The notes under the pieces were generated by a model. It was not told the DNA's origin and searched no databases. It saw nothing but the letters and a program-made list of their open reading frames with translations. Made by a program: the position numbers and the translations under genes. From Goekera deserti (GTDB taxonomy: Bacteria > Actinomycetota > Actinomycetes > Mycobacteriales > Geodermatophilaceae): DNA of 64,000 nt. Below, in pieces: positions 54,561 to 61,416 of this stretch (position 1 is the stretch's first letter; every line of letters begins with the position of its first letter). The stretch is from positions 124,001 through 188,000 of the forward strand of contig NZ_JAAGWK010000021.1 of assembly GCF_010685995.1 (NCBI RefSeq), given 5' to 3'.

Positions 54561-54770
54561 GGTTGTGCAGAGAGGCGTCCCCAACGGTGTTGGACGCCGG
54601 CCCCGCGGGTTCCTAGCGTCGACCCCAGCAGCCGCGGGGCACCGTCCCGCGGCATGCGCCCGGCGGCCGGCGTTCTGTCGGTACGGGGCGCTAAGCAGTA
54701 CCCGACACCGACGGCGCCGACCTGGCGCCGCCGGCGGCGACGACGTTCGTGGAAGGTGGGGGACCAGCGC

Positions 54771-57383
54771 GTGGCAGTGGTCGACGACATCAGCCGGCCC
54801 AAGGCGGCGGCGCCGGAGTACGACCGGCAGCCCCCTCAGGACGTCGCTGCCGAGCAGTCGGTCCTCGGCGGGATGCTGATGTCCAAGGACGCCATCGCCG
54901 ACGTCGTGGAGGTCCTGCACGGCAACGACTTCTACCGACCCGCCCACCAGATCGTCTACGACTGCATCCTCGACCTCTACGGCCGCGGCGAGCCGGCCGA
55001 CGCCATCACCGTCGCCGCCGAGCTGAATCGCGCCGACCAGCTGTCCCGGATGGGCGGCGCGGTCTACCTGCACACCCTGATCGCCTCCACGCCCACGGCG
55101 GCCAACGCCGGCTACTACGCCGCGATCGTGGCCGAGCAGGCCGTGCTGCGCCGGCTGGTCGAGGCCGGCACCCGGATCGTGCAGATGGGCTACGGCGCCG
55201 CCGGCGGCGGGGGCGACGTCGACGACATCGTCGACCGGGCCCAGCAGGAGGTCTACGACGTCACCGAGAAGCGCATGAGCGAGGACTACTCGCGCCTCGA
55301 GGACGTCCTGCAGCCCACCATGGACGAGCTGGACGCGATCGCCTCCCGCGGTGGCACCGCCCGCGGTGTGCCCACCGGCATCCGCGACCTCGACGAGCTG
55401 ACCAACGGCCTGCAGGCCGGCCAGATGATCGTCATCGCCGCCCGTCCTGGCGTGGGCAAGGCCCTGGCCCTGGACACGCCGCTCGCCACGCCCGGCGGTT
55501 GGACGACGATGGGCGAGATCACCGTGGGGCAGCAGGTGCTCGGTGCCGACGGCCGGCCGACCACGGTGGTGGCCGCGACCGAGGTGCTGCGCGGGCGCCC
55601 CTGCTTCGAGGTGCACTTCTCCGACGGCTCGGTCGTCGTCGCCGATGCCCAGCACCAGTGGCTGACCCACGACCGGGCCAGCCGGCGCGCCGCGCAGGAG
55701 GCCCGGGCGGCCGGGGGCACGCGGGCGCCGCGTCAGGTCCCCGCGGTCCGGACGACCGAGGAGCTGGCCCGCACCCTGCGCTGCGCCACGGCGGACGCCC
55801 GGCTGAACCACTCGGTGACCAACGCCGCCCCACTGGAGCTGCCCGACGCCGACCTGCCGGTCCCGCCCTACGCCTTCGGGGTGTGGCTGGGCGACGGCTC
55901 CTCCGCGGCGGCCCAGTACACCAGCGACGACCCGGAGATCGCGGTCCACATCGAGGCCGAGGGCCTGGTCGTCACGCCGACCGGCGCCGACCGGCGGTAC
56001 TCCCTGCGGCTGCCCGCCCACCCACCGGTGGCCGAGCGGACGTGCCCGATGTGCGGCGGGTCGTTCCTGCCGAGGACCTCGCAGGTCCAGACCTGCGGGA
56101 AGGCCTGCGGCGGGCGTCTGCGGGCCTCGGGCGGGGTCGGCCGCAGTGCCACCTGCGCCGAGTGCGGCGGGCCGTCCGCCGGCCTCGCGCAGTGCCAGGG
56201 GTGCCGGGACCACCACGGGACGGTGCAGGCGCGGCTGCGTTCCCTGGGCGCGCTGGGTGACAAGCACATCCCCGTCCGGTACCTGCGGGCGTCGGTCGCC
56301 CAGCGACGGGCGCTGCTCGCCGGCCTGCTGGACAGTGACGGCACGGTCGCGCCGAACGGCGTGGTGCAGTTCGCGGTGACCAGCCGGCGGCTGGCGGAGG
56401 ACGCCCGGGAGCTGATCGCGAGCCTGGGCCACCGTGTGCGGATGTCGCGCAAGCCCGTCGCCGGGCGCGGCCCGGACTCCTCGACCTGCTTCACCCTCAC
56501 CTTCAGCACCGACGACGAGGTCTTCCGGCTGGAGCGCAAGAAGCTGGCGCACAAGGAGCGAGGTGCGCGCACGTTCACCGCTCGGGGTGTCCGGTTCATC
56601 ACCGACGTGCGGCCGGTGGACAGCGTCCCCGTGCGGTGCATCCAGGTCGATGCCGACGACCACCTCTTCCTGGCCGGGCGCAGCTTCATCCCGACCCACA
56701 ACTCGACGCTCGGGCTGGACATCGCGCGCTCGGCCGCCGTGAAGCACGGCAAGGCCGCCTGCATCTTCTCCCTGGAGATGAGCAAGCACGAGATCACCAT
56801 GCGTCTGCTGTCCGCCGAGGCAAAGGTGCCGCTGCACCACATGCGCGCCGGCACGCTGAGCGACGAGGACTGGTCGAAGCTGGCCCGTCGGATGGGTGAG
56901 GTCGCCGATGCGCCGCTCTACATCGACGACTCCCCCAACATGACGATGATGGAGATCCGGGCCAAGGCGCGGCGGCTCAAGCAGCGCAACGACCTCGAGC
57001 TGGTGGTCATCGACTACCTGCAGCTGATGACGTCGGGCAAGCGGGTGGAGAGCCGCCAGCAGGAGGTCTCGGAGTTCTCCCGCGCGCTGAAGCTGCTGGC
57101 CAAGGAGCTCGAGGTGCCGGTGATCGCGATGAGCCAGCTGAACCGTGGGTCCGAGCAGCGTCAGGACAAGAAGCCGATGCTGTCGGACCTCCGCGAGTCG
57201 GGCAGCATCGAGCAGGACGCGGACATGGTCATGATGATCCACCGCGAGGACATGTACGAGAAGGAGTCCCCGCGGGCCGGCGAGGCCGACATCATGCTGG
57301 TCAAGCACCGCAACGGCCCCACCGCCAACGTCACGGTCGCCTTCCAGGGCCATTACAGCCGCTTCGTCGACATGGCCAACTGA
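54771..57383 (+). CDS. dnaB: Replicative DNA helicase DnaB, intein-containing precursor
   Basis: DnaB is the hexameric 5'-3' helicase of the replisome. The N-terminal domain starts at PPQDVAAEQSVLGGMLMSKDAI. The RecA-like domain begins TGIRDLDELTNGLQAGQMIVIAARPGVGK. The P-loop is cut after this Lys230 by a 414-residue intein, then resumes STLGLDIARSAAVKHG, FSLEMSKHEITMRLL, VVIDYLQLM, LNRGSEQRQDKKPMLSDLRESGSIEQDAD and MLVKHRNGP. The spliced protein has about 456 residues, normal for DnaB. The GTG at 54771 follows GGTGGGGGA. ATP binding needs splicing. Confidence 0.97.
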   Translation: MAVVDDISRPKAAAPEYDRQPPQDVAAEQSVLGGMLMSKDAIADVVEVLHGNDFYRPAHQIVYDCILDLYGRGEPADAITVAAELNRADQLSRMGGAVYLHTLIASTPTAANAGYYAAIVAEQAVLRRLVEAGTRIVQMGYGAAGGGGDVDDIVDRAQQEVYDVTEKRMSEDYSRLEDVLQPTMDELDAIASRGGTARGVPTGIRDLDELTNGLQAGQMIVIAARPGVGKALALDTPLATPGGWTTMGEITVGQQVLGADGRPTTVVAATEVLRGRPCFEVHFSDGSVVVADAQHQWLTHDRASRRAAQEARAAGGTRAPRQVPAVRTTEELARTLRCATADARLNHSVTNAAPLELPDADLPVPPYAFGVWLGDGSSAAAQYTSDDPEIAVHIEAEGLVVTPTGADRRYSLRLPAHPPVAERTCPMCGGSFLPRTSQVQTCGKACGGRLRASGGVGRSATCAECGGPSAGLAQCQGCRDHHGTVQARLRSLGALGDKHIPVRYLRASVAQRRALLAGLLDSDGTVAPNGVVQFAVTSRRLAEDARELIASLGHRVRMSRKPVAGRGPDSSTCFTLTFSTDDEVFRLERKKLAHKERGARTFTARGVRFITDVRPVDSVPVRCIQVDADDHLFLAGRSFIPTHNSTLGLDIARSAAVKHGKAACIFSLEMSKHEITMRLLSAEAKVPLHHMRAGTLSDEDWSKLARRMGEVADAPLYIDDSPNMTMMEIRAKARRLKQRNDLELVVIDYLQLMTSGKRVESRQQEVSEFSRALKLLAKELEVPVIAMSQLNRGSEQRQDKKPMLSDLRESGSIEQDADMVMMIHREDMYEKESPRAGEADIMLVKHRNGPTANVTVAFQGHYSRFVDMAN
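55461..56702 (+). mobile_element. DnaB intein, class 3 type with endonuclease and Cys clusters (414 aa)
   Basis: The insert starts with Ala (ALALDTPLATPGGWTTMGE), not Cys, and ends FIPTHN before Ser. It has the class 3 triplet: Trp67 (ADAQHQW, block B), Cys393 (VRCIQV, block F) and Thr412 (PTHN, block G), so Cys393 should start splicing. LAGLIDADG motifs are LGDGS (143-147) and LAGLLDSDG (286-294). Between them lie CPMC...CGKAC (C195, C198, C212, C216) and CAEC...CQGC (C232, C235, C245, C248), two likely zinc sites. Confidence 0.9.
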
Positions 57384-57419
57384 CCTGCCCCGTCCGGGAC
57401 TCCGGTCCCCGGTGGCAGG

Positions 57420-57474
57420 CAGTGGCCCGTCAGCGGCCAGTAGGGAGCCCGACGTGGCCGCTGACGGGTCACTG
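57420..57474. terminator. Long hairpin terminator after dnaB
   Basis: A 20-bp stem with a single G-T mismatch (57420-57439 against 57455-57474) encloses a 15-base loop. It begins 37 bases after the dnaB stop and lies just before the convergent CsoR-like gene. No T run follows. Confidence 0.85.
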
Positions 57475-57503
57475 CTCGCGGTCAGCCGCCTGCCTGGGCG
57501 CGG

Positions 57504-57770
57504 TCAGGCCAGGGCCAGGAACAGCTTCTCCATCTTCTTCACGTCGACGCCGTCCAGGCCCTCGTCGGACTCCGCGAGGCAGTGCTGCAGGCCGGTGGCG
57601 ACGATCGCGTAGCCGCTGCGGGCGATCGCCTTGTTCACGGCGGCCAGCTGGGTGAGCACCGACTCGCAGTCCGAGCCCTCCTCCATCATCCGGATGACGC
57701 TGCCGAGGTGGCCGTGCGCTCGCTTCATGCGCGTGATGATCGCCTTGATCTCGGTGGGTTCGAGGTCCAC
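57504..57770 (-). CDS. CsoR/FrmR-family metal-sensing repressor
   Basis: An 88-residue all-helical protein of the DUF156 family (ITRMKRAHGHLGSVIRMMEEG, VLTQLAAVNKAIARSGYAIVATGLQHCL). The residues corresponding to the CsoR copper site are present: Cys35, His63 and Cys64. Loss of repression on metal binding is expected, but the inducer is not proven. The GTG at 57770 has AGGA upstream. It is divergent from an MMPL pump, and two G/C-tract palindromes of the CsoR operator kind lie between. Confidence 0.9.
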   Translation of the reverse strand: MDLEPTEIKAIITRMKRAHGHLGSVIRMMEEGSDCESVLTQLAAVNKAIARSGYAIVATGLQHCLAESDEGLDGVDVKKMEKLFLALA

Positions 57771-57908
57771 GGGTCCTGCTCTCTGGGTCTGGTGGCGGTC
57801 GACCGCGCCGGACCCGCGCCCCGCGTGACGGGCCCGAGGTGGGACGGCGGCTGCTCGGGGTCGGTGGGCTGACCGCCGACCCCCTCGATGGGACGAGCTC
57901 AGGCTACA

Positions 57909-57960
57909 ACCCCCTGGGGGGATCTGCTACGGTCGCGCTGCTTTATCCCCCCGGGGGGAT
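57909..57960. promoter_or_regulatory. Two CsoR-type operators between csoR-like and MMPL genes
   Basis: Site 1 is ACCCCCTGGGGGGAT (57909-57923). Site 2 is the perfect 16-mer ATCCCCCCGGGGGGAT (57945-57960). Their starts are 36 bases apart. Paired C/G-tract palindromes with A/T edges match the type 2 operators of CsoR/RcnR-like proteins. Both lie upstream of the MMPL start at 58010. Confidence 0.82.
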
Positions 57961-58009
57961 GCAGGCGATCCACGAACTCCTCCCGGCACGGACCCACTGG
58001 AGGCCCCGC

Positions 58010-60241
58010 ATGACGTCGACCACCGGCCGACCCCCTGCCCTGCTGCCGCCCGACCCCGCCGCGCCGGGCGCGGCACGAGGCGACACCCCCGACCCGGTGG
58101 GTGTCCGACGCCGGTTCGGGCCGCTGGGGCGGCTCGGTCTGGCCGTCGTCGACCACGGCCGGGTCACCGCGATCGTGTGGCTCCTGCTGGTCATCGGCCT
58201 CGGCGCCTTCGCCCCGCGGGTGGAGGCCGAGCTGTCCGGGGCCGGCTGGCAGGCCGACGGCTCGGAGTCGGTGGCGGTCCGCGAGCTCGCGCAGGACCGG
58301 TTCGGCGGCAACGCCAGCCACGCCCTTCAGGTCGTCGTCCACTCCGACGACGGCCCGGTCACCCAGGGCCGGGGCGCGGAGGTGCTGGCGCAGGCCACCG
58401 CCCTCCTGGAGGCCGACCCGCGGATCTCGTCCGTCGTCCAGCCCCAGCCCGGTGCCATGCTCTCCGCCGACGGGTCCACGGCCGTCCTGCTCGCCGGGGC
58501 CGACGCCGACACCAACGACATGGTCCGCGCCGCCGACGCGCTGACCGAGCCGCTGGAGGCCCTGTCCGGGGACGGCGTCGAGGTCGACCCGACCGGCTCC
58601 TCGCAGCTGTGGAGCGACTTCAACGAGGCCAACCTGCAGGCCATGCTCCAGTCCGAGCTGCTCTCCTGGCCGCTGACCCTGGCCATCCTGGTGGTCGCGT
58701 TCGGTGCCCTGGTCGCCGCCGGGCTGCCACTGCTGTTGACGCTGGCCGGGCTCGTCGCCTCCGCCGGGTCGTTGGTGCTGGTCAACCAGCTGGTGCCCGT
58801 CTCCATCTGGGCGCTGAACTTCGCGCTGATGTTCGCCCTCGCCCTGGGCATCGACTACGCGCTGTTCGTCGTCGTCCGGTTCCGGGCCGCGCGCGCGGCC
58901 CAGGCGGCGGCCGGGCAGCAGGGCCGGCCGGCTGCGCGGCTCGCCGTCGCCGAGACCATGGACACCGCCGGCAAGGCCGTGCTGCTGTCCGGCGTCACCG
59001 TCCTGGTCTCGCTGAGCGCGGTGATGATCGTGCCCAGCCCCTCGTTCCGCTCGATGGCCGGCGGGATCATGCTCGCCGTCGTCTTCGTGCTCGCCGCCAC
59101 CCTCACCCTGCTCCCGCTGGTGCTGGTGCGGCTGGACCACCGGGTCGACGCTCTCTCCCTGCCGTGGACCGCGCGCGCCGAGCACCGGTCCCCGCGCTTC
59201 GCCGCCTGGGGTGCCCACCTGTGGAAGCACCCCGTGCTCGCCGGGGTCGCGTCCACGGTGGTCCTGCTCGCGCTCGCCGCGCCCGTCGTCGGGCTCAGCA
59301 CCGCCATGCCCTCGATCGCGGTGCTCCCGGAGGATGCCCCGGCGCGCGAGGGCTACGACCGGGTGCAGGAGGCGTTCGGCGTCGGGGCGCCCGGCGCCCT
59401 GCAGGTGGTCGCCGACGCCGCCGACGCCGACGCCACCGTGCAGGTCCTGGACCAGGACCCCGGGATCGCCGCGGTGGCGCCACCGGTGCCCGCCACCGAC
59501 GGCAGCGCGCAGGTGCTCGTGCAGGCCGCGCCCACCGTCGACCCGTCCGACCCGGCACTCGCCGAGACCGTGGACCGGCTGCGGGACCAGCTCCCCCGGT
59601 CGGCGCTCGTGGGTGGCGCCGCGGTGGAGAACCTGGACCTGGAGTCCGAGCTCGACGCCGTCACCCCGGTGGTGGTCGTGACCGTCCTGGTGCTCGGGTT
59701 CCTGCTGTTGCTCGTCGCGCTGCAGGCGCCGCTGATCTCCCTGCTCGGCACCCTCGTCAGCCTGCTGTCCACGGCCGCCGCGTTCGGCGTCGCCCGCCTG
59801 GTCTTCCAGGAGGGCATCGGGGCCGGCCTGCTGGGCTTCCAGTCGCAGGGCTTCCTGGACGCCTGGGCGCCGGTGTTCTTCTTCGCGATGATCTTCGCGA
59901 TCGCGATGGACTACACCGTGTTCCTGCTGGCCTCGGCCAAGGAGCACTGGGAGCGCACCGGTGACCCGCGGGAGGCGATGGTCGGCGCGATGGCGCACTC
60001 CGGCCGGGTCGTCTTCGCCGCGGGCGCGGTGATGGTGGTCGTCTTCGCCACCTTCGCGCTCTCCGGCCCGCTGCCGCCCAAGGAGATGGGCATCGTGCTG
60101 GGCGTCGCCGTCCTGCTGGACGCCTTCCTGGTGCGGCTGGTGCTGCTGCCGGTGCTGCTGCGCCTCACCGGCCGGGCCGCCTGGTGGACCCCGGCCTGGC
60201 TGGCCCGCGTGCTGCCCGACATCCGCTTCTCGCACTCCTGA
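58010..60241 (+). CDS. MMPL family transporter
   Basis: A 743-residue RND-superfamily pump with two repeats of one helix, an outer loop and five helices. The conserved stretches are LIGLGAFAPRVEAELSG, then GIDYALFVVVRFR in the first half, and AMDYTVFLLASAKEHWERTGDPREAM in the second half; the central Asp-Tyr pairs are the proton-relay positions. MMPL pumps usually move lipids or small molecules outward. The ATG at 58010 follows GGAGG. Control by the adjacent CsoR-like protein would make it metal- or thiol-stress-induced. Confidence 0.93.
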   Translation: MTSTTGRPPALLPPDPAAPGAARGDTPDPVGVRRRFGPLGRLGLAVVDHGRVTAIVWLLLVIGLGAFAPRVEAELSGAGWQADGSESVAVRELAQDRFGGNASHALQVVVHSDDGPVTQGRGAEVLAQATALLEADPRISSVVQPQPGAMLSADGSTAVLLAGADADTNDMVRAADALTEPLEALSGDGVEVDPTGSSQLWSDFNEANLQAMLQSELLSWPLTLAILVVAFGALVAAGLPLLLTLAGLVASAGSLVLVNQLVPVSIWALNFALMFALALGIDYALFVVVRFRAARAAQAAAGQQGRPAARLAVAETMDTAGKAVLLSGVTVLVSLSAVMIVPSPSFRSMAGGIMLAVVFVLAATLTLLPLVLVRLDHRVDALSLPWTARAEHRSPRFAAWGAHLWKHPVLAGVASTVVLLALAAPVVGLSTAMPSIAVLPEDAPAREGYDRVQEAFGVGAPGALQVVADAADADATVQVLDQDPGIAAVAPPVPATDGSAQVLVQAAPTVDPSDPALAETVDRLRDQLPRSALVGGAAVENLDLESELDAVTPVVVVTVLVLGFLLLLVALQAPLISLLGTLVSLLSTAAAFGVARLVFQEGIGAGLLGFQSQGFLDAWAPVFFFAMIFAIAMDYTVFLLASAKEHWERTGDPREAMVGAMAHSGRVVFAAGAVMVVVFATFALSGPLPPKEMGIVLGVAVLLDAFLVRLVLLPVLLRLTGRAAWWTPAWLARVLPDIRFSHS

Positions 60242-60287
60242 CCCCCGCACCCGCCACCCGCACACCGAGACGATCGAGAGGGACGAC

Positions 60288-60455
60288 ATGTGCCGAGCAA
60301 CCCCCTGCAGCACCTGCGGGAGGACCACCTGGGCCGGCTGCGGCCAGCACGTCGCGCAGGTCCGGGCGAGCGTGTCCGCCGCGCAGTGGTGCCCCGGGCA
60401 CCCGGGCGCCACCGAGGCGCGACGCTCGCTGTGGAGCCGGGTGCTGCGCCGCTGA
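60288..60455 (+). CDS. Cys-rich mini-protein (55 aa)
   Basis: A small frame directly after the MMPL gene: ATG at 60288, GAGAGGGA upstream, and a start 47 bases after the MMPL stop. The product begins MCRATPCSTCGRTTWAGCGQ and has Cys2, Cys7, Cys10, Cys18, His21, Cys35 and His38, arranged as CxxC, CxxH and CxxH pairs. The TCGxTTWAGCGxHV pattern is one I know from short conserved proteins in actinobacteria and fungi without a firm function. Zinc or copper binding is likely. Co-transcription with the pump is inferred from spacing. Confidence 0.8.
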   Translation: MCRATPCSTCGRTTWAGCGQHVAQVRASVSAAQWCPGHPGATEARRSLWSRVLRR

Positions 60456-60465
60456 CGGCCGCAGG

Positions 60466-61416
60466 TCAGCCCGCCCGGCGCCGCTCCACCGGCAGGTGCA
60501 CCGGCGGCGTCGGGAACGGGCTGGCCCCGACGACGCCGCCGGCGGCCGCGGCCAGCTCCGGCTGCTCGCGGCCGGCGCTGCGCCGGGCCAGCACCAGGAC
60601 GCCGCCGACCAGCAGCACCACACCGATCAGCTGACCGCTGCGGGCGACCGCGCCCAGGGCCAGCGACTCACCGAACACCGGGCCGGCCAGCCCGATCGCG
60701 ATCAGCGGCTCCAGCACGGCCATCGCCGGCAGCGACTCGATGAGCGCACCGGTCTGGTAGGCCCACTGGGCCATCGTGATGCCCACCGCGCCGCTGAGGA
60801 CCAGGGCGTAGAACGGCCAGGACACCAGCCAGCGGTCGACGTCCACCTCCACCAGCGCCTTCAGCTGCAGGCCGGTGCTGCCGAAGCCGCACCCGGAGGC
60901 GATGCCGAGCACCAGGGCCCGGTGCGGCGCGTTCGGCCGCAGCGCCCACACCGCCGCGAGCAGGGCCACCCCCACCGCCGCGGCGACGCACAGCCCGAGG
61001 GCGAGGTCGGTGGCCCCGCGGCCCTCCCCGGGGTGCGCGGCGAGCAGGAAGACACCGAGTCCGACGACGACCACCACCGCCGCCGCCCACTGCACCCGGT
61101 CGGGCAGGGCGCGGCCCGGGTGCAGCCGGTCCACCACCGCACCCAGGACCAGCGACAGCACCAGACCGCTGGACAGCAGCGGCTGCACGAGCACCACCGC
61201 ACCGTGGTGCAGCGCGAAGGCGTGCAGGGTGAGGCCGACCACCGCGGCGAACTGACCGGCCAGCCAAACGGGGTGCCGGATCAGCTTCTGCAGCAGCCGG
61301 AGCACCCGCCCGGCGCCCTGCCCGGAGTCCACCGAGCTGGCCGCCCGGTGCTGCACCACGGTCGACACGGCGAAGGCGGACGCGGAACCCAGGGCCAGCA
61401 GGACGGCGGCGATCAC
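60466..61416 (-). CDS. EamA/DMT-type membrane transporter
   Basis: A 316-residue protein with about nine to ten membrane helices in two halves (LLALGSASAFAVSTVVQHRAA at the start; AVLEPLIAIGLAGPVFGE near the end, a typical EamA motif). Proteins of this kind export metabolites or act as magnesium/metabolite carriers. The start is taken as the GTG at 61416; the upstream extension is low complexity. It is convergent with the mini-protein gene, 10 bases between stops. Confidence 0.82.
   Translation of the reverse strand: MIAAVLLALGSASAFAVSTVVQHRAASSVDSGQGAGRVLRLLQKLIRHPVWLAGQFAAVVGLTLHAFALHHGAVVLVQPLLSSGLVLSLVLGAVVDRLHPGRALPDRVQWAAAVVVVVGLGVFLLAAHPGEGRGATDLALGLCVAAAVGVALLAAVWALRPNAPHRALVLGIASGCGFGSTGLQLKALVEVDVDRWLVSWPFYALVLSGAVGITMAQWAYQTGALIESLPAMAVLEPLIAIGLAGPVFGESLALGAVARSGQLIGVVLLVGGVLVLARRSAGREQPELAAAAGGVVGASPFPTPPVHLPVERRRAG

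Follow-up and report, generated by a model that had tools for sequence, protein, structure and literature searches.

Organization of the locus

A 64,000-nucleotide stretch of Goekera deserti DNA (contig NZ_JAAGWK010000021.1, positions 124,001 to 188,000; hereafter the window) contains a locus of three open reading frames and two palindromes. The first gene (57504..57770, − strand) encodes an 88 amino acid repressor of the CsoR/DUF156 family. Divergent from it are the genes of a 743 amino acid pump of the MMPL/RND type (58010..60241, + strand) and of a Cys/His-rich protein of 55 amino acids, hereafter the mini-protein (60288..60455, + strand). Two putative operators, to which no strand is assigned, lie between the divergent genes: AACCCCCTGGGGGGAT (57908..57923) and the perfect palindrome ATCCCCCCGGGGGGAT (57945..57960). 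An original prediction, which had considered the locus a metal-stress module, described the same regulator, pump and small protein together with two C/G-tract palindromes, and all of these were located as described. The short gap between pump and mini-protein was also found, although it spans 46 bases rather than the 47 proposed.

The family Geodermatophilaceae was sampled with 112 genomes. Sixty stretches were fetched for a mini-protein match or a strong regulator match and mapped with the window, and a further 80 loci were fetched for the mini-protein, these being the best 80 of at least 582 relatives from a scan of genome contigs with the mini-protein alignment. Genes in all loci were predicted by a simple purpose-written script. 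All 12 close MMPL matches in the family genomes adjoin a mini-protein. The sensor, pump and mini-protein are therefore a recurring set, and the check on gene order that had been proposed with the original prediction came out in its favor.

Residue pattern of the regulator

The regulator belongs to the CsoR/RcnR family (DUF156, PF02583) and scores 74.2 bits where the cut-off is 22.8. When aligned with CsoR from Mycobacterium tuberculosis, Cys35 and Cys64 coincide with its two cysteines and Gly60 coincides with its ligand His. In M. tuberculosis CsoR, these residues are the copper ligands. The window regulator lacks the Cys-His-Cys ligand set of a Cu(I)-sensing CsoR, the His being replaced by Gly60, and displays the two conserved cysteines without a His ligand that are typical of CstR/ScCsoR-like proteins. 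Relatives present the same picture. Among the 63 regulators found near mini-proteins in the 80 loci, several of which are near-identical, Cys35 and Cys64 are each present in 63 of 63, and position 60 is Gly in 32, Ala in 31 and His in none. The sensor set that was originally proposed, Cys35/His63/Cys64, is present in full, but only the cysteines are conserved; position 63 is variable with His in 5 of 63. Over both locus sets, the ligand His is absent from 117 of 118 regulators, the exception being a second regulator in locus L095. It is also absent from two of ten aligned PDB relatives, 7mq1 and 7mq3, which were deposited under the name CsoR and which we take to be a CstR.

FrmR was the best NCBIfam match of the regulator, but with 36.5 bits, where the cut-off is 133. 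Formaldehyde sensing of the FrmR type was set aside because the genomic context consists of sulfur genes.

In a tree of the regulators, the window protein falls in a clade (10 rows, support 100/100) from Nocardioidaceae, Kribbellaceae and one Blastococcus locus that stands apart from the other regulators of the family; this tree was built from few columns and leaves 36 forks open. Horizontal transfer of the locus may be offered as a suggestion only, since the tree covers the regulator and not the pump or the mini-protein. The regulator from Nocardioides sp. CFH 31398 (locus L128) is 95% identical to that of the window. Apart from the window regulator itself and a match in genome G013, the strong regulator matches of the family are only 38–54% identical to it.

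A second CsoR paralogue is encoded elsewhere in the G. deserti genome (contig C32, 334645-334887). It has Cys-His-Cys spacing (EDHMAHC) and an ATACCCC-type site upstream, 64 bp past the matched region. Another such site (C32, 305781) precedes a His-rich open reading frame. The second paralogue and these sites are perhaps the copper regulon of this organism.

Putative operators

Operator 2 begins 37 bp after the start of operator 1 and lies approximately 50 bp before the ATG of the pump. Apart from these two palindromes, no site in the window fits the C/G-tract pattern, and no other place in the genome of 4,841,546 bases matches WWCCCCCNNGGGGGWW exactly. With one mismatch allowed, three further places in the genome were identified; a reversed control pattern gave two per strand. 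C/G-tract palindromes in the promoter to be controlled are a further feature of CstR/ScCsoR-like regulators, and the two putative sites would supply it.

A strict rule was applied to the relatives (a 16- or 17-mer with no fewer than 7 of 8 pairs matched, a CCCC/GGGG core and AT-rich flanks). It returned 125 sites in 141 loci compared to one in a single first-order Markov shuffle of the same loci. Nearly all of the sites lie between called genes (113/125, with 12/125 inside genes), where they precede the regulator, sulfur genes, the MMPL gene or the mini-protein itself. Even among the 21 mini-proteins with no regulator nearby, 12 have a palindrome before them or their operon.

The sites also vary with the regulator. 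An operator variant whose third base is C accounts for 12 of 12 sites in the 11 loci of the window regulator's clade, two of these loci being from the same genome. Elsewhere it occurs in 1 of 113 sites, in a Nocardioides locus (L150) with no called regulator. By a looser rule, paired sites with starts 32–36 bp apart are present in 10 of the 11 clade loci (37 bp for the 16-mers of the window), the remaining clade locus, L141, having one site; L150 has two sites as well. Neither rule finds a site in locus L186, a neighbor of the clade in the tree. Since the variant co-varies with the regulator clade, this is the best computational sign that the regulator may bind these sites. Taken together, the residue pattern and the putative operators fit a regulator of the CstR/ScCsoR-like class.

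Genomic context of the regulator and mini-protein

In the family genomes, 48 mini-protein matches were found in 36 of 112 genomes, and for 41 of the 48 a strong regulator match lies no more than 5.5 kb away. Conversely, 41 of 61 strong regulator matches have a mini-protein within that distance. A frequent gene order is regulator, rhodanese, dioxygenase-rhodanese fusion, MMPL (optional), mini-protein, rhodanese with a YgaP-type membrane part (optional) and TauE, of which there are many variations. When one representative of each was compared with Pfam, the rhodanese and TauE assignments were supported, the YgaP-like match was just below its cut-off (24.5 bits) and the metallo-beta-lactamase match of the fusion protein was weak and below cut-off (E = 0.00067). 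The name persulfide dioxygenase is suggested by the fusion and by a parallel in Streptomyces coelicolor.

The best 80 of the at least 582 mini-protein loci contain a regulator in 63 cases, a rhodanese in 35, a dioxygenase profile match in 32, TauE in 22 and MMPL in 14. Because some genomes occur in both locus sets, further counts were made by distinct mini-protein (103 from 124 loci). A two-cysteine regulator is within 7 kb of 82 of these 103. Profile matches were obtained for the dioxygenase near 52, for rhodanese near 54 (36 of them short proteins) and for TauE near 43, so that at least one of these sulfur profiles accompanies 76 of 103. MMPL is less common, being near 16 of 103, with two weak matches and 14 above 300 bits.

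A locus from a record labelled Acidobacteria (L146) also has the mini-protein, dioxygenase, rhodanese and TauE as in actinobacterial loci; it is possibly a mis-binned contig.

The mini-protein

The mini-protein has no Pfam or NCBIfam match. A comparison with PHROGs gave two weak matches (E = 0.011 and 0.17), both of unknown function, and no convincing match was identified among PDB sequences (best E = 0.16). A text search of the open-licence literature for the string TTWAGCG found a match only in work on malaria parasites.

The original prediction had noted CxxC (7/10) and two CxxH pairs (18/21 and 35/38) in the mini-protein, all of which are present, and Cys2 may be added to them. All 106 distinct sequences, second copies included, have M1, C2, C7, C10, T14, W15, G17, C18, G19, H21 and C35, and 92 of them have His38. 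The predicted structure is modest (mean predicted local distance difference test score, pLDDT = 72.9; predicted template modeling score, pTM = 0.41) with strands at residues 3–6 and 13–16 and a helix at residues 19–28. A Foldseek search with this model returned seven matches at E = 10, zinc fingers among them, and none at E = 0.001; VIA-align placed none of 10 chains at Z = 2. The seven Cys/His positions and the modest model would allow metal binding, such as a structural zinc. Its function is suggested by the company of genes it keeps.

The mini-protein was detected in 177 of 393 genomes sampled from the class (E = 0.001) and in 39 of 296 sampled from the phylum (E = 1e-8). It is often unannotated: 28 of 32 matching plasmid records, in a gene table that describes itself as incomplete, have no feature at that place.

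Other arrangements of the family were observed. In loci L177 (6616-7691) and L182, two mini-protein paralogues flank a thioredoxin-sized gene beside a regulator; in L177 the flanked gene is a thioredoxin by Pfam and the second paralogue ends in RCSC. On the Rhodococcus erythropolis plasmid NZ_AP018735.1 (3221-4162, locus L249), a mini-protein relative with no listed gene lies approximately 97 bases after a sigma-70-family gene, with TauE and rhodanese genes some 3 kb away. This is a second regulatory setting of the mini-protein family.

The MMPL pump

The pump matches the MMPL family (PF03176) with 197.2 bits. Its likely start is the ATG at 58010, preceded by GGAGG at 57999-58003. As a member of the MMPL/RND group, it contains two Asp-Tyr pairs (codons 58853-58858 and 59909-59914), presumably corresponding to the proton-relay residues of MmpL proteins. 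The closest solved chains by sequence are those of MmpL3 (E = 6e-40), followed by MmpL5 and MmpL4. MmpL3 is the exporter of trehalose monomycolate and MmpL4/MmpL5 are siderophore exporters. In contrast to these, the window pump, at 743 amino acids, is of a distinct subfamily and has other genomic partners.

The 12 close matches (E = 1e-150), which come from 9 of the 112 family genomes, consist of the pump itself (100%) and eleven proteins of 75–78% identity; scoring was confined to the top candidates of each genome (9). In six genomes searched at the looser limit of E = 1e-10, other MMPL proteins reach no more than 36–37% identity and 282 bits compared to at least 1117 bits for the members of the subfamily. 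By these scores, the pump belongs to a separate MMPL subfamily.

Outside of the family, a pump, mini-protein and nearby regulator also occur in a Nocardioides locus (L141) and in a Nocardioidaceae bin (L175), although the order is not the same gene for gene. In both, a CMD-family gene lies between the pump and the mini-protein, a DUF302 gene is beside the regulator, and no dioxygenase is present among the genes displayed. The genes of L141 were scanned, with matches to the DUF302, CMD and YgaP-like models.

Sulfur genes in the G. deserti genome

The G. deserti assembly comprises 61 contigs with a completeness of 100. A dioxygenase query against it gave only two partial matches, in separate places: one of 36% to its rhodanese part and one of 30% to its metallo-beta-lactamase part. 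At E = 1e-25, with scoring confined to the top candidates of each genome (14), the dioxygenase was identified in 55 of 112 family genomes. It is present, though not necessarily adjoining the mini-protein, in 33 of the 34 genomes that match the mini-protein strongly; the sole exception is G. deserti. This count of 34 omits two of the 36 genomes mentioned above, G023 and G007, with weak mini-protein matches (E = 4.5e-4 and 9.1e-4). Eight rhodanese-domain and four TauE-family matches occur elsewhere in the G. deserti genome, none of them near a site from the WWCCCCCNNGGGGGWW search. Control of dioxygenase, rhodanese or sulfite exporter genes, which is characteristic of CstR/ScCsoR-like regulators, is therefore not seen at the window locus.

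Comparison with known systems

ScCsoR from S. coelicolor has two cysteines, both of which are needed for its release by hydrogen polysulfide, HSnH (PMC7533328). It controls pdo, with which tauE is co-transcribed, and a gene for a rhodanese. Its sites have the form ATACCn6GGTAT, with two of them at −48 and −9, and it binds such sites upstream of pdo and in the region that separates its own gene from that of the rhodanese (PMC7533328). This circuit resembles the window locus in its two-cysteine repressor of the CsoR family and its paired palindromes, which are 39 bp apart by the positions given; it also resembles the relatives of the window locus in its sulfur genes. In contrast, the window locus has an MMPL pump and a mini-protein with no dioxygenase, rhodanese or TauE, and its operators are flanked by ATCC/AACC as opposed to ATACC.

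The excerpted reports on CstR from Staphylococcus aureus and on a cst-like operon of Enterococcus faecalis describe a di-thiol, persulfide-responsive repressor (PMC9405070, PMC9918477). The di-thiol pattern is shared with the window regulator, and CstR represses persulfide-handling genes. These targets differ from the window genes, being rhodaneses, a CoA-persulfide reductase and sulfur-oxidation genes, and the excerpts describe no MMPL pump or mini-protein among them.

The SUL module of Arthrobacter plasmids combines a CsoR regulator and a transporter with two rhodaneses, TauE, a putative sulfur dioxygenase, a DUF302 protein and a small hypothetical protein (PMC6305408). Like the window locus, it brings a CsoR regulator, a small protein and a transporter together. 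Unlike the window locus, its transporter is of the MFS type, and the small protein may be likened to the mini-protein by description only. No paper on the set of CsoR, MMPL and mini-protein was found in the open-licence PMC literature, in which the related SUL module alone was identified.

Interpretation of the locus

The locus is probably a switch that responds to sulfane sulfur, as persulfide or polysulfide, with persulfide being the leading candidate for the inducer. It is best read as an efflux-plus-mini-protein variant, or a remnant, of an actinobacterial sulfane-sulfur regulon. In the proposed mechanism, a CstR/ScCsoR-like repressor would sit on the two C/G-tract operators and block the divergent promoter of the pump, with which the mini-protein gene would be co-transcribed. 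In many relatives, the same switch would operate with a persulfide dioxygenase-rhodanese fusion, rhodaneses and the sulfite exporter TauE. Since no dioxygenase was found in the G. deserti genome, the response there would consist of efflux and the mini-protein. The latter may be a thiol protein, perhaps stabilized by zinc, that carries, traps or helps to deliver sulfane sulfur, and the favored guess for the substrate of the pump is a hydrophobic or organic sulfane-sulfur compound. A bolder version is tentative and would probably not hold in full: the mini-protein would be a new family of dedicated sulfane-sulfur carriers, traps or adaptors in actinobacterial CstR-type regulons, the linked MMPL would export sulfane sulfur or an adduct, and persulfide resistance would be achieved by export and not by oxidation.

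Several observations weigh against a sulfane-sulfur switch. The window module itself contains no sulfur enzyme, and a sigma-70 promoter scan of 57400-60700 located no promoter. A mini-protein is missing within 5.5 kb of 20 of the 61 strong family regulators; of the 103 distinct mini-proteins, 21 have no nearby regulator and 24 have no operator by the strict rule. The mini-protein relative on the Rhodococcus plasmid follows a sigma-factor gene. P-type-ATPase-like genes, which were named from motifs and sought in the family set, accompany 9 of the 40 distinct mini-proteins of the family at a distance of up to 7 kb (loci L068, L070, L073, L074, L075, L085, L090, L094 and L095). Such a gene is the immediate neighbor of the mini-protein in two of these loci, L094 and L095, the latter with a Cys-His-Cys CsoR nearby as well. 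Finally, a study in Thermus describes a two-cysteine CsoR homologue, TTHA1953, that is not released by NaHS (PMC10318464); thus, two cysteines are no proof of persulfide sensing.

Among the alternatives, a module directed at thiol-reactive xenobiotics fares best, yet it is improbable. The two-cysteine repressor would sense an organosulfur or electrophilic toxin, the pump would export the compound or its thiol conjugate, and the sulfane-sulfur enzymes of the relatives would be a side branch. MMPL pumps transport large hydrophobic compounds, which would suit this proposal, as would the CMD-family gene between pump and mini-protein in L141 and L175, the DUF302 gene beside the regulator in these loci (scanned in L141) and the lack of a dioxygenase match in the G. 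deserti genome. The usual partners, namely dioxygenase, rhodanese and TauE, point instead to inorganic or thiol-bound sulfane sulfur.

The metal-stress module of the original prediction is more doubtful still. There, the regulator would sense Cu(I) or another metal, the pump would export the metal or a metal-damaged lipid, and the mini-protein would be a metal chaperone or buffer. While membership in the CsoR family, the seven Cys/His positions of the mini-protein and the P-type-ATPase-like genes near 9 of 40 family mini-proteins agree with this, metal as the signal is disfavored by Gly60 at the copper-ligand position, at which His is also missing from 63 of 63 relatives, and by the poor conservation of His63. 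A separate CsoR with Cys-His-Cys spacing and its own upstream site exists in the same genome, and the linked genes are predominantly sulfur-handling (76/103). A decaying remnant that has lost dioxygenase, rhodanese and TauE and has no present function in sulfur stress is very improbable: G. deserti is the sole genome of 34 without the dioxygenase and its mini-protein carries Ser30 at a position that is Pro in 99 of 106 relatives, but all three frames are open, the invariant Cys/His residues of regulator and mini-protein are retained, both palindromes are intact with one being perfect, and L141 and L175 have the same three components with no dioxygenase among the genes displayed.

Sulfane-sulfur sensing is already known; what the locus adds is a widespread, unnamed component to a known kind of regulon. 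None of the libraries searched contains a model for this small companion, which is found with 41 of 61 such regulators in the family. The G. deserti genome may be considered a natural experiment in that the sensor, pump and mini-protein were kept and the oxidizing enzyme was not found; as a result, the role of the pump and mini-protein may be tested alone. If the interpretation as a sulfane-sulfur switch is true, the involvement of an MMPL pump in persulfide stress would mean a new kind of cargo for the MMPL family.

Neighboring genes

The gene divergent from the regulator is an MMPL rather than a P-type ATPase. The other neighbors, a helicase gene and an open reading frame of 316 amino acids (60466-61416), were judged by eye. 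The helicase gene (54756-57383, + strand), which resembles DnaB by eye, has an in-frame intein-like insert at the P-loop. The insert contains two Cys-rich clusters and ends in THN before STLGLD.

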